The position numbers and the translations under genes are program-made. This document shows positions 2,071 through 7,774 of a stretch of 64,000 nt of DNA, in pieces. Source of the stretch: Holtermannia corniformis (lineage: Eukaryota; Basidiomycota; Tremellomycetes; Holtermanniales); contig BCIJ01000040.1 in the NCBI GenBank assembly GCA_001599935.1, positions 13,518 through 77,517 on the forward strand, in the 5' to 3' direction. Positions within the stretch are counted from its first letter, which is position 1, and the number at the start of each line of letters is the position of its first letter. The notes below the pieces were generated by a model. It did no database searches. It was not told where the DNA came from and saw nothing but the letters and a program-made list of their open reading frames with translations.

Positions 2071-2789
2071 TGAAGGCGACGCGCGCCCACCAAGTGTTTA
2101 TACGGTCGAACATGGGTCAACAAAACAAACCGCGCGGCGCCACCCGACGTTGAAACTCCATCTTTCCCTAGGCCCCTACCTTTGGCGACAACACACCGCG
2201 CTAAAGGAAGGCCCCTCGACAGAGAGCGCAAGGCGGCGGGCGCCGCGCAAACCAACCGCATGGTCCTGGCAGAACCAGCGGCCAAGGCTACCCGCGCGTC
2301 GGCCTAACACGAACCCACGCTGGACCACGAAAGGCCCACCCTCAAACGCTCATGTACACGCCAGACGAGGGCCCAAAACAAACCTAAAGGTTCCCGACGG
2401 CATCATAGACCCTCGAGCGGGCCTGGGGGGGGGATTGTCACGGAGGGTGGTCGGCACGAGGGCAGGCGCCGCTCGAGAGGTCCTCAGCACGCCGCAACGG
2501 CTACTGAGAGTCGTTCTTCGGCGGACGGCATTAGCCGCGTATCCTACAAACCAAACGCCGCCCGCCGCTCGCCTCGCTCGAAGATCGCGGAGCTCGGCGC
2601 GCTCCGACCGCCGTAGCCATACGGCGTCCCGCGCCTCGAGAGATGCATCACNNTTGTACATCCTAACAGTTACCTATTGCTATCGCAACCCACAGACTAA
2701 AGTCAANCCCTCGAGTACTCTAAGTAGTTCTCGAGTACCAGCTAGCTCTGCTCCGCCTAGCGACCTAAGAGTCGTCACGCGTCGCCGAT
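2071..2789. other. Gene-poor flank with assembly Ns, possible retroelement remnant
   Basis: No convincing gene. Ambiguous bases sit at 2652-2653 and 2707. Around 2710-2745 CTCGAGTAC occurs twice as a direct repeat and forms an imperfect inverted repeat (CTCGAGTAC / GTTCTCGAG). This stretch lies downstream, in the minus-strand sense, of the Copia gag relic, so it may be 3' debris of that element. I could not define LTR ends. Confidence 0.4.
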
Positions 2790-3662
2790 CTACCTAAACC
2801 TTCCGCGACTTCCGCCGAGCGCCGACGCCCGTCGTCTCTCAGCAACCGCATCCTCACACGCAAGGTGCCCCGCCTTGCCGCAGTTGTAACAGGAGCGCGT
2901 CTCCTTGCCCTTGCCCTTGTTCTGCTTGGCCGCCCGCGCCAGCAGAACCACCGCCTCCTCTCGCGCAGCCCGTCTGGTGCGCTTCTCCTCCTCCAAGTTC
3001 CATGCCCTTCGGAGCTCGATGAACGTNTGCTCCGCCTCTGGGCGCCGATACCAATCGCGGTCGAAGCCATCCAACCAGGCTCCCAGCGACCCCATGAACA
3101 GGTCGCACTTCTCCACATCTGACCATCGAAGGCCAGCGTTGCCACCGCGAGTGATCAACTCGTTGAACTTGATGAGGTGCTCCTTCATATCTCCCCCCTC
3201 TGGGAGATACATGTTGTTGAGGTCTCGGCGAATGTCCTGCCGATACCCCTTCGTGTCGAGGGAATGCAGCTTATGCAGCTGATCCCACATCTCCCTCGCC
3301 GAGGTGCAGTCGCCGACGTCAAGCTTGAGGACCCCACTAATCGTAAGGCGAATAGTGCCCCGCGCCCGACTGTCCCTGTCCACCCAGGAGATGTACTCCC
3401 GACGCCTCTGATCGCTGCCGATCCCCAAAGGGATCTGTGCGGGGGTCCGCACTGACCCTCGCCCCCTCTCACCAGCCAGCTTCGCCTCCACCGCCACCTC
3501 ATCTGCCTCTTCTGCGTCGCCCCACCTGGGCTTCGGTTCCGTACCCTCCACCAGGCCCATTGTGCCGTTCGCCAAGAGGATATCCTTGAGGGCCTCCCGC
3601 CACTCGAAGAAGTTCTCCATCCCCTCCAGCACTGGAACCTTGGATACGTCCATCGCAGACAT
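2790..3662 (-). mobile_element. Ty1/Copia retrotransposon gag relic
   Basis: A single open frame of about 290 codons. The N-terminal part (MSAMDVSKVPVLEGMENFFE...) and the central block (REMWDQLHKLHSL, then KEHLIKFNELI) match the gag polyprotein of Copia-type LTR elements (UBN2/Retrotran_gag families). A CCHC-like zinc knuckle near residue 260 reads CYNCGKAGHLAC. The last cysteine comes after two residues instead of four, so the knuckle is degenerate, and the frame then runs into unrelated sequence. No protease, integrase or reverse transcriptase can be read downstream, so this is a truncated copy. One ambiguous base (3027) falls inside the frame. Paired LTRs were not found. Confidence 0.8.
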
Positions 3663-3943
3663 CTCACATGCAGATCTTTCGGTAGGGTAGGGAGCTAGAC
3701 AGACTCTTAATCTGTTGGGGCAGTGATCGTTGGTTGCATCGAGGCTCGAGCCGAGCTAATGTAGTTTCGCCCTGGCCTGGCCATAACCCCGATAACGCCG
3801 CTCCTAACCCCTCTGAGAGCTCGTCACTCAACACGTCATAACGTAACGCGCGAATCACATGAAACAGTCGAAAACATCCTTCTTGCGGTCCTTGTTGTCG
3901 GAATGACTTGACCAGCGCTGACACGTCGCTGCAGCTGCTGACG
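3663..3943. other. Intergenic: gag 5' flank and MBOAT-gene promoter
   Basis: Separates the minus-strand gag relic from the plus-strand MBOAT gene. It would hold the 5' leader or LTR of the retroelement if complete. I see no clear TG...CA LTR ends, primer-binding site or TATA box. Confidence 0.4.
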
Positions 3944-5481
3944 ATGCCGCTGAACGCTCTTGCCAGGCTCCACGCGGCTGTGATCGCCAACGCGCAAGCC
4001 ATCACGCGCGAAACAGCACCGCAGCTGCTCCTTCCGGTACTCGTGCTTGGGTGCCAGACGTATGCGTGGACATATCAAGGGACGCGGTGGATCAGGGCCG
4101 CCCTGTGGCCAGTGGTAGTTCTTTTCATGCTGAGAACGTGGGCTGGCTTTCGCTTCGTCGGTGCGTCCGTTGGCGCTCGTTCAACTCGAGCTTACAAAGG
4201 TCAGAGCCGCACCTGCAAGACTTCAACTACGCCATCGGGATCTCGGTATGCATGTTGATGAGGGACCAAGCACGCTTACATGATTCAGGCCATTCATGTA
4301 CGCCATCCTGGGCGCCTGCTCGCACTAACACCACCAGCTCATCATCAAAACGACAGAGTACGCTCTCGCGACGGTACCCTCGCCGCCAGTACAGATACCA
4401 GGCAGGCCGCAACCCTCGCGCGTGAAGCAAGCGATCAACATTGCGATAAATTCGCGCCATGTTGGACTCCCTCCCAACTCTCCGCTCGCGCCGCTCAGGG
4501 TTCCACGGACAAGGCTGCAGCATTGCCTCCACCACCTGCGCAGCGCTTTGCTCCACTATGTCGTCTTTGATGCCGGCGTGTATATGCTGCACGCTTACGC
4601 GCCCGATACGCTCGCAAACCCAGCAGGCTCCTCCATCTATGCGTTCGCTCAAAGCATGGTTGATCGTTACCCACTGGAGGGCGTTGGCACGACAGCGCAG
4701 AAGCTATTCTGGCAAGAAGCGGCCGTTGCGTTTGCCGGCATGGGCATCTACCAAGGCATCTCCTACTTGTACCACCTCTTTGCCGTCATCGCGATTGGTG
4801 CATTCGCGTGGCAAGGCGAAGAATGGCCCCAGTTCTTCAAAAAGCCGTGGTTGGCGACGAGTCTGTTCGACTTTTGGGGCAAGCGGTGGCACCAGGTGAG
4901 TCGTGCTAGTCTCACGCGGTGTGGAGCTGACACTATCTCAGCTCTTTAGGGTTGGTCGCGTCTGCCGTAGCGTACGCATTTAACAAAGCTCAGCATCAAT
5001 TCATCCTCCTCGGCCAGGGTCTGCACAACAACCTGCACCTCCCTTCTCCTTTCCTTCCAGTCTTTGTCTTTGCCCTCTCGGGTATTCTTCACGCCCTCGG
5101 CCCGCTCACAATGCACCCATTCCCCGCTCCACTCCCCATCTTCCTCTTCTTCCTTCTCTCGGGTGTCGGCTGTACCCTCGAACTTGGTTTCCGCAAGCTC
5201 ACAGGCAAGCGGGTTGGCGGGGTGCTAGGGTGGGCATGGACTTGGTTGTGGCTTGGATGGACGGGTAGGAGCGTGACGGAAGCTTGGGTGCAGAGCGGGG
5301 TATTGGCCGGCACGTTGGTGTGGGACAAGGCTAGCATCGTGTCAAACGTGTTGGCGTTGGTGAGTATCTCTGTGAGCTCTTACGACAAGGACTGATATTG
5401 CGCAGCGAGATGATGACGGATCACTTCCCGTCTGGCTCAAGTTCATCTTGGAACTCGGAGCGGGCGCCGCGTTCCTGTGGT
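3944..5481 (+). CDS. Wax-synthase-type membrane-bound O-acyltransferase (MBOAT_2)
   Basis: A multi-exon integral membrane protein. Exon 1 begins MPLNALARLHAAV and holds hydrophobic helices. Intron 4161-4204 joins it to EPHLQDFNYAIGIS, and a later exon reads LIIKTTEYAL. The diagnostic MBOAT_2/wax synthase motifs follow: FWGKRWHQ before an intron at 4895, and FALSGILHALG near 5080, holding the family's conserved histidine. The family transfers acyl groups to alcohols or sterols, and related fungal proteins act in secondary metabolism; the substrate here is unknown. Two oddities: the frame from WHQ through LFR does not connect to the next open stretch (GLVASAVAYAF) without a one-base shift near 4951, and the 3' end flows in frame into PIG-S. 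A 9-nt exon (AIH) between two canonical introns is predicted near 4304-4312. Confidence 0.75.
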
Positions 5482-5525
5482 GTGAGCCGCTCCCGACCGG
5501 AAGATCGCCAACTCACCCTGTTCAG

Positions 5526-7774
5526 TCATCAACAAAGTAGTCTACCGTAACGAGCCCGCAGTCGAGCTCCCACCCAAGCACCAAGTTGACGCAGCCATCA
5601 AACCGAGCCCGTGCACAACCGTCGCCTTTACGCCAATCCCGCAAGACGTCTCAGCGCGCATCGGGCCGTCGCATGCCGCGAGGCGAAACGCACTCTTGTG
5701 CTTTCCGTTGTTGATCCTCCTGGCGCTGCCGCATTGGAATCACACGACCAAGATTGAGCGCTTGGCGTTACCGGTCGACCGGATCGAGGCTTTGCAGTCG
5801 CTCTCGGTGCGTCGCTCGCCTGCGCAGATGAGGCCACTGGCTGACAGTCTCTAGATACCAGAGCTGAAGACCAAAGTCTACCTTACAATTGACGAACGGG
5901 TGTTTCCGACACCTCCACCCGGTCAAACGATCGACCGTGGCTCATTGACGCGCGCACTACTGCGCGACATTCACCTGGCGTCAGATGGCATCATTCATCG
6001 TCAACTTGGGATCAAGGAAGACCGGACCTGGGAGATCGTGACGCGGCTTGATCGCAGTGGGTCATCTAAGAGTTGACAGCGCGTCGCTGACGCTCATGAT
6101 CAGGTGAAGCGATCCCGCCGCTCAGGATACACATCTACTCGTCTGAAGACGTGCAGCATGGCTTTCCGCTCCGACCGTATCTCCTGCCAGAGGCGAAGAG
6201 GATTCCGGTGTCGGACAGGGGAAGGGAGGTATTGCCGATTGGATCATATATGGTCCCTGTCAACCCTTCTCATATCGGCGATCCAATGTTCAGAAGTGAG
6301 TCAGGTTGACGGCGCCGGTGTGCGGACAGCTGATGTCGAATGCTAGATCACCTTGCGAACGCAATCACGCGCCCGCTGATCGCGCTGCTGCCGACTGCAC
6401 CGCGTCCGCCGCCTCTGCGCGCCGTCAAGTATGCTCGAGACATTACGCTCAGTTTTGTCCTGCTGAATGAAGACGGTTCTCAAGGTGCTTTCGTCGAGAG
6501 CTGGGCGATTGACGAGGCGCTGCGTGGTACGCGCTACCGGTTTCTTGGCGTCGCAGCTGACACGATAGAATACATACTGCCGAGCTTGACGCCGCTACGA
6601 GCCATCCACAACTTTACAATCGAATCGCAGGTGCTAGTCCATGCGCCTCTGTCCATCACACCGGTGTGGGGCACATCGCCGCACGACACGCTCTCGACGT
6701 CGTCCTCCCCCGAGAAGGCTGTAGCGCAAGCTATCAATGCTGCGGACGAGCACTTGGAAGAGGTAGCCCAAGTGGCACTGGACAGAGAAGTGGAAGATGG
6801 TCGAGACGAGGCATGGCTGGTGGATCACGAACAGACAAAGGAGTTTGTCAATTCAGAAAAGTGGAGCCTGGGTGAGTTCGAGGCGCTTTACGCTTCGGCC
6901 ATCTAATGCTGGACAGACTCGGGCAGCTCCAACAACCCGGTTTTACGCTTCTTGCTCTTCGTGCCGTCTGTTGCGCACCGACCGATGCGGCTCGCTATCG
7001 CCGGTAGGTATTGCGACGAGATGACGGTTTAGGCTGAGGTGCCCAGACTCGGCCCAATCCTTCCTCTTGCCGCAATATGGTGGTGTAGCATTCTTCAACC
7101 CCCCGCGCGATGTGGCGACCAATAGCTGGCATCTCCCACTCTCGGCTCTCGCACCGGCATTCCACCTCTTCAAGCAACAGCTCTACTCTCTGCTCGCACT
7201 CCCGACTCTGCCGACGCCCAACCCGTTCTCGGCGCCTCCCAGTTCGGCAACCTACACAGGCATGACGCCATTCCAGCTTGATACATTGATGCGCGTCCGT
7301 GCCGAGGAGAATGTAGAAGAGACCAAGAAGACGCTGGCGGGGATCGTCCGGCTCGTCGACAAGATCAAAGAGATGCAGGTCGGCGAGGGCGTTCGCGGCA
7401 AAGTGCTGGCGTCGGTAGAAAAGCTCGAGCAGGTGTGTCGCCAGCTAGTGTGGCCTCGCTGACGAAGCAGGCGTTGAGCGTGGAGCAAGGCTCGACGAAG
7501 ATCAAAGAAGTCTTTGAGCTGTCGCGCGATGCCGTGGGGTTCGCCAACGAGGCGTTCTTCGATCCATCGATGATGGGACTGCTGTACTTTGTGAGTCTGC
7601 CGACCAAGTCTCGAGCCAGCTCTGATAACGCAGCCCGCCGAGCACAAGGCGGCAGTGTATACCCCGCTGTTTGCACCCGTCGCTGTACCCATCCTCGTCT
7701 TCCTGCTCAAAGAGGTCGTATCGTGGAAGAAGAATCGGCGACGGGCGACCCCACCAACGACGTCATCTTTGTAA
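5526..7774 (+). CDS. GPI17: GPI transamidase subunit PIG-S (Gpi17)
   Basis: PIG-S is an ER membrane subunit of the GPI transamidase that attaches GPI anchors to proteins. The N-terminal membrane segment (LLCFPLLILLALPHWNHTT) followed by KIERLALPVDRI is the family signature. Further exons give YARDITLSFVLLNEDG, the conserved LPQYGGVAFFNPP region and a C-terminal membrane helix (LFAPVAVPILVFLL) with a basic tail. Exons join in frame across at least seven introns, several with CTGAC branch sites. No in-frame ATG lies before the first membrane segment. The only in-frame upstream continuation is the MBOAT reading frame across intron 5482-5525. Either the two proteins are fused or the true start exon is one I cannot identify. 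Confidence 0.88.

Follow-up and report, generated by a model that had tools for sequence, protein, structure and literature searches.

A candidate in-frame fusion of a wax-synthase-type MBOAT enzyme to PIG-S in Holtermannia corniformis

The locus and its predicted protein

We analysed a window of 64,000 nucleotides from the basidiomycete Holtermannia corniformis (contig BCIJ01000040.1; positions below are those of the window), in which a predicted gene at 3944–7774 appears to join a wax-synthase-type MBOAT enzyme in frame to PIG-S, a subunit of the glycosylphosphatidylinositol (GPI) transamidase. The assembly comprises 20.2 Mb in 55 contigs, and the 64-kb window has a G+C content of 58%. A single open frame of 1064 amino acids runs on the plus strand from ATG 3944 to TAA 7772–7774 across fifteen predicted exons. 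Pfam profiles place an MBOAT_2 domain first and PIG-S after it, so that the claim of a preliminary description, that the MBOAT frame runs into PIG-S, is borne out to the extent that both domains lie in one spliced frame. The predicted protein consists of 395 amino acids of MBOAT_2 up to exon 6, an added helix and linker of 60 amino acids, and then PIG-S, and its spliced junction reads ...RDDDGSLPVWLKFILELGAGAAFLW followed directly by FINKVVYRNEP... on the way into PIG-S. On the predicted splicing the frame stays open through both domains with consistent signal and codon statistics. Scanning the window for Rfam families and tRNAs gave no matches.

Intron and codon statistics were obtained with a simple gene finder trained on 264 kb, made up of the 64-kb window and 20 stretches of 10 kb. 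It was seeded with the studied locus (the exons and 12 of the 14 introns) and then retrained six times without that locus. The resulting reference set holds 565 introns, and all intron and decoy counts given here rest on the predictions of the gene finder; antisense decoys are GT-AG pairs taken from the strand opposite to predicted genes. At the studied gene the gene finder differed from our model in placing the first acceptor at 4204, not 4219, and in adding an intron at 6527–6568.

Features of the predicted MBOAT_2–PIG-S gene, in window coordinates
Feature	Position	Strand	Basis or remark
MBOAT_2 part, predicted exons 1–6	3944–5359	+	PF13813 match, paralogue introns
Exons 1–6 singly	3944–4160, 4220–4245, 4289–4297, 4338–4895, 4942–4950, 4994–5359	+	two 9-bp micro-exons included
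Junction intron 1, 46 bp	5360–5405	+	holds TGA 5393–5395
Exon 7, reads RDDDGSLPVWLKFILELGAGAAFLW in the MBOAT frame	5406–5481	+	codon usage, hydropathy
Candidate separate PIG-S start if donor 5480 is used, ATG ATG	5410–5415	+	
Junction intron 2, 44 bp, phase 1, weak	5482–5525	+	rival donor at 5480
Exon 8: linker, PIG-S pre-helix motif, first PIG-S helix	5526–5806	+	alignment with 26 relatives
Remaining PIG-S, 7 predicted exons, to stop TAA 7772–7774	5855–7774	+	PF10510, relatives

The MBOAT part matches PF13813 over the full profile (1–85) at residues 247–328 (E 2.9e-14; 53.5 bits against a cut-off of 25). The histidine of its SGILH motif is residue 306; this histidine in a hydrophobic stretch, together with an RWHQ motif, is common to the window MBOAT, two paralogues in the same genome and the four database homologues returned by the search. 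We take the SGxxH histidine and the RWHQ motif to have a catalytic role. The paralogues are predicted standalone MBOAT_2 genes at C34:138.2–139.3 kb (L033) and C2:1169.8–1170.8 kb (L036). Introns at alignment columns 91, 94, 306 and 309 have the same position and phase in all three genes, and a fifth (column 77, phase 1) is common to the window gene and the C2 paralogue; the C34 paralogue has a short predicted N-terminus, and its first intron lies at a different column. Because two predicted paralogues carry the same micro-exon introns, the gene model of the MBOAT part is supported. The pair of 9-bp micro-exons kept in all three genes is an oddity of the family. The genome search with the PF13813 profile gave the window locus only, and the paralogues came from DNA and protein searches, so that family searches are to be read as lower bounds.

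The PIG-S part matches PF10510 with an E value of 9.3e-90 (302.4 bits against a cut-off of 26). The best stretch covers profile positions 192–513 of 514, a second stretch adds to it, and an N-terminal piece (3–36) was seen in the genome search. Simple hydropathy places a membrane helix at each end of PIG-S (residues 471–489 and 1025–1043), with 535 residues between them. A profile built from 13 of the PIG-S relatives matches the solved human PIG-S chains 7wld and 7w72 and the GPI17 chain 9ub7. The window protein has the full domain, both end helices and the pre-helix motif of PIG-S/Gpi17; the motif, TPIPQD, begins at 5630 and the first helix at about 5681, and exon 8, which holds both, has a codon log-likelihood ratio (LLR) of +9.25 over 41 codons. 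In the 26 aligned relatives (except P0019, which begins within the protein and has no N-terminal part) the layout is a methionine, mostly a short disordered-looking tail, a motif like TPxEVTAxINPS and then the first helix. The difference lies in what comes before: the relatives begin with their own methionine, whereas the window PIG-S is preceded in frame by MBOAT. A family profile search of the 20.2-Mb genome found one PIG-S locus.

The junction between the two parts

The PIG-S frame of exon 8 has no ATG ahead of the first helix, back to the stop at 5483–5485. The preliminary description had made the same point, and a check of the PIG-S open reading frame (5486–5854) upheld it. It had rested the junction on the 44-bp phase-1 intron at 5482–5525, with its Trp-Phe-Ile-Asn-Lys join; the coordinates, length and phase of this intron were reproduced. 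It had mentioned neither the rival donor at 5480 nor the stronger evidence, which comes from the first junction intron and the in-frame TGA that this intron holds.

The score of the first junction intron (5360–5405) lies at the 96th percentile of the 565 self-trained introns. None of 15,001 antisense decoys scored as high, nor did any of 7,084 GT-AG pairs inside predicted exons, the latter being a biased set. On the plus strand of the window eight pairs are as good, and seven of the eight are introns of predicted genes, 5360–5405 among them. If the intron is kept, the MBOAT frame meets the TGA at 5393–5395. Neither this intron nor the second junction intron is present in either predicted MBOAT_2 paralogue.

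Read in the MBOAT frame, exon 7 has a codon LLR of +4.93; read from ATG 5410, it has −1.05. True exon windows have a median of 4.36, and shifted frames a 95th percentile of 2.2–2.3. Among 4189 windows of 24 codons, an open shifted frame outscored the true one by the margin of exon 7 in 21; among 162 N-terminal windows this never happened. Of 6401 windows of 25 codons lying outside predicted genes, 92 were open and reached 4.93. The spliced 60-codon linker as a whole scores 12.15, a value reached by open windows outside predicted genes in 33 of 5930 cases, and no change of frame in codon usage is seen at the junction. By simple hydropathy, residues 404–422 in exon 7 are likely to form an extra membrane helix. 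Since a frame shift turns a Ser-rich reading into a hydrophobic one and vice versa, hydrophobicity alone is not decisive for the frame of exon 7, and it is codon usage that decides.

The C34 paralogue had suggested that the exon 7 helix is an ordinary MBOAT C-terminus. This idea was dropped once the second paralogue and the homologues were aligned: both paralogues and the four database homologues end 21–33 residues past the conserved MBOAT core, which makes it more probable that exon 7 was added to MBOAT than that it is its usual end. In this the window protein departs from the fungal wax-synthase-type MBOATs of PF13813, with which it otherwise shares the domain, the motifs and, in the paralogues, four intron positions: these six relatives end soon after the core, and the window MBOAT runs on into a helix and PIG-S.

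We searched for start routes into PIG-S among the ATGs at about 4990 and beyond, allowing each route no more than two introns, each 110 bp or shorter and scoring above fixed limits. The search returned 12 routes, ten of which begin at ATG 5111 within MBOAT. The two routes outside the MBOAT frame begin at ATG 5410 and ATG 5413 and score −2.1 and −2.5; the best route in the MBOAT frame scores 16.2, start costs being included and the longer path having more codons scored. Use of donor 5480 with ATG 5410 or 5413 is the only two-protein route found in this search.

Because the first junction intron is strong, exon 7 has the codon usage of the MBOAT frame, the PIG-S frame has no ATG of its own and the genome has one PIG-S locus, a fusion is the best-supported structure. 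We therefore consider it likely, judging from sequence, that the locus is one gene for a fused endoplasmic reticulum (ER) membrane protein that carries an MBOAT_2 enzyme and the only PIG-S found in the genome. The two parts may formerly have been separate genes and tandem neighbours. Splicing of 5360–5405 would have removed the MBOAT stop and splicing of 5482–5525 would have set the PIG-S frame. The product would be a multi-pass ER MBOAT followed by the added helix (404–422), a linker and PIG-S; on the expected topology, the added helix may bring the MBOAT end to the side where the first PIG-S helix enters. The fused protein would be expected to fill the PIG-S role within the GPI transamidase and to bring a tethered MBOAT enzyme with it; because there is one PIG-S gene, the transamidase should carry MBOAT if the fusion is the sole product.

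Evidence against the fusion and alternative readings

Several observations weigh against a fusion. The second junction intron was earlier called perfect, which is too strong a term: it scores at the 9th percentile of the 565 introns and is equalled or beaten by 491 of the 15,001 antisense decoys. With the first junction intron unspliced, the window MBOAT ends 27 residues past the core, at TGA 5393–5395; this falls inside the 21–33 range of its relatives and makes a separate MBOAT protein plausible. By the same match to the usual MBOAT length, splicing of that intron removes what appears to be the old MBOAT stop. Of 95 database relatives of PIG-S, among them all 26 matches to the whole fusion, not one carried PF13813, each search having scored its roughly 8000 best-matching candidates only. 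The gene finder, with a mean coding sequence of 2.06 kb, seems to join genes too readily, and it stretched the studied gene upstream to 3264 across a repeat resembling a long terminal repeat (LTR), an extension that we take as false. That repeat ends 109 bp ahead of the MBOAT ATG, an unexpected setting for a promoter if the gene is, as is probable, essential. The claim of an in-frame fusion accordingly stands as the best-supported structure, tempered by a weak second junction intron, by one surviving two-protein reading and by its dependence on predicted splicing in one genome.

The donor of the second junction intron, GTGAGC, is at the 18th percentile of the 565, and its best branch motif, CTCAC, is found in 40 of the 565 introns. 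Because this intron is weak, some MBOAT-only transcripts may occur. One pre-mRNA might then have two outputs, full splicing giving the fusion and retention of either junction intron giving a standalone MBOAT that ends at TGA 5393–5395 or TAG 5538–5540; where 5482–5525 is kept, PIG-S has no ATG in frame. The canonical length of the unspliced MBOAT is in keeping with such an arrangement, as is the statement in passages of PMC5006051 that nearly all expressed genes of Cryptococcus neoformans are alternatively spliced. We regard two outputs as a tentative possibility, which refines the fusion and overlaps with it in probability.

The main alternative, which we consider unlikely, is that a very compact or overlapping pair of genes makes two proteins, MBOAT ending at TGA 5393–5395 or TAA 5548–5550 and PIG-S starting at ATG 5410 or 5413 with a Ser-rich tail like that of its relatives. 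Two donors overlap at 5480–5487 (GTGTGAGC), 2 nt apart, and the choice between them toggles between the fusion and the two-protein readings: use of donor 5480 joins ATG 5410/5413 to the PIG-S frame and closes the MBOAT frame at TAA 5548–5550. Donor 5480 scores 2.31 against 3.88 for donor 5482, and its hexamer, GTGTGA, is used in none of the 565 introns. Most PIG-S relatives begin with short disordered-looking tails, as this reading would have it, and six MBOAT relatives end within the same range as the unspliced MBOAT, whose read-through codons are acceptable (+1.92 over 11 codons). The score of exon 7 in the ATG frame argues the other way, as so poor a start is found in only 1 of 54 predicted genes, and the very strong first junction intron would be left without a purpose. 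The gap from the stop at 5395 to ATG 5410 would be 14 bp, against a smallest gap of 116 bp among 24 predicted same-strand gaps. Passages of PMC4503453 describe read-through over neighbouring genes in up to 8% of transcribed Agaricomycetes genes. These polycistronic transcripts resemble the window locus in that adjacent same-strand genes lie on one transcript; they differ, as described there, in having stops in all frames between the open reading frames, whereas the spliced frame here is open.

It is very unlikely that PIG-S starts at a non-AUG codon in exon 8 or from a distant 5′ exon beyond the range of the start-route search; the lack of an ATG ahead of the helix in the PIG-S frame of exon 8 would fit such a start, which would be unusual, and the search covered the nearer routes. 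Least probable of all is an error of sequence or assembly that conceals a stop or a start: a DNA search found the junction at one place in the single assembly, leaving no second copy for comparison, but 3944–7774 holds no N (the 4 N of the window all lie within 2652–3027) and codon usage remains in frame across the junction.

Relatives, possible function and surroundings

The searches for PIG-S relatives scored the best-matching candidates only (7993 and 7995), with lengths of 0.55–1.75 times the query. Among the 95 relatives found no second species with an MBOAT–PIG-S fusion was seen; the nearest are only 49–50% identical, so that close sister species were not covered. The closest listed relatives are from Tremellomycetes, and identity to the listed PIG-S proteins of Tremellales and Trichosporonales is 40–49%. 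In a tree of the window PIG-S and 21 chosen relatives, the window protein joins neither the Tremellales nor the Trichosporonales rows; it branches inside Naganishia, deep among Tremellomycetes. The fork that excludes it has support below the starred level (93/81), and the tree comes with a long-branch warning. Because the window PIG-S is at most 49–50% identical to listed proteins and sits on a deep branch, a lineage-restricted fusion is quite possible, and the fusion is perhaps lineage-specific. No PIG-S relatives were found in viral contigs or GTDB genomes, as expected for a fungal gene, and the open-licence PMC literature yielded no published report of a PIG-S–MBOAT fusion. One relative, P0065 from Rhizoctonia solani (882 amino acids), is annotated as PIG-S with a C-terminal CBS-domain part, and may be either a further PIG-S fusion or two annotations merged into one.

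As to function, the MBOAT_2 family is poorly known. The yeast MBOAT Gup1, of Pfam family PF03062, remodels GPI lipids. It would be a functional parallel if the window MBOAT acted on GPI lipids; the two differ in family (PF03062 and PF13813). Separate GWT1, GPI16 and GAA1 genes and three places with PF03062 matches were found in the genome by family searches, and because these parts of the GPI pathway are present there is no obvious gap in it that the fused MBOAT would be filling. Passages of PMC9098846 describe PIG-S as essential for transamidase activity, its function being less clear. That one polypeptide might combine lipid remodelling with anchor transfer, a function beyond that of PIG-S, is conjecture. 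In a more specific form, to which we give little credence, the fused MBOAT would work at the transamidase itself, acylating a GPI lipid or its acceptor and so coupling anchor remodelling to transfer; splicing or retention of the weak junction intron would decide whether MBOAT is free or transamidase-bound, with all PIG-S coming from the spliced form.

Should the fusion prove true, the N-terminus of PIG-S would tolerate a large membrane enzyme, and a functional link between this MBOAT family and GPI anchoring would be hinted at. The locus would also show plainly how junction introns can join two genes by removing a stop codon through splicing.

Upstream of the gene, the LTR-like repeat is 122 bp long and lies at 3713–3834. 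It has no second copy within the window; a query that holds it gave 34 matches elsewhere in the genome, most of them spanning 3713–3834. Beside the repeat, a minus-strand gag-like frame (2790–3755) contains the sequence CYNCGKAGH, presumably the zinc knuckle of a Copia-like gag.
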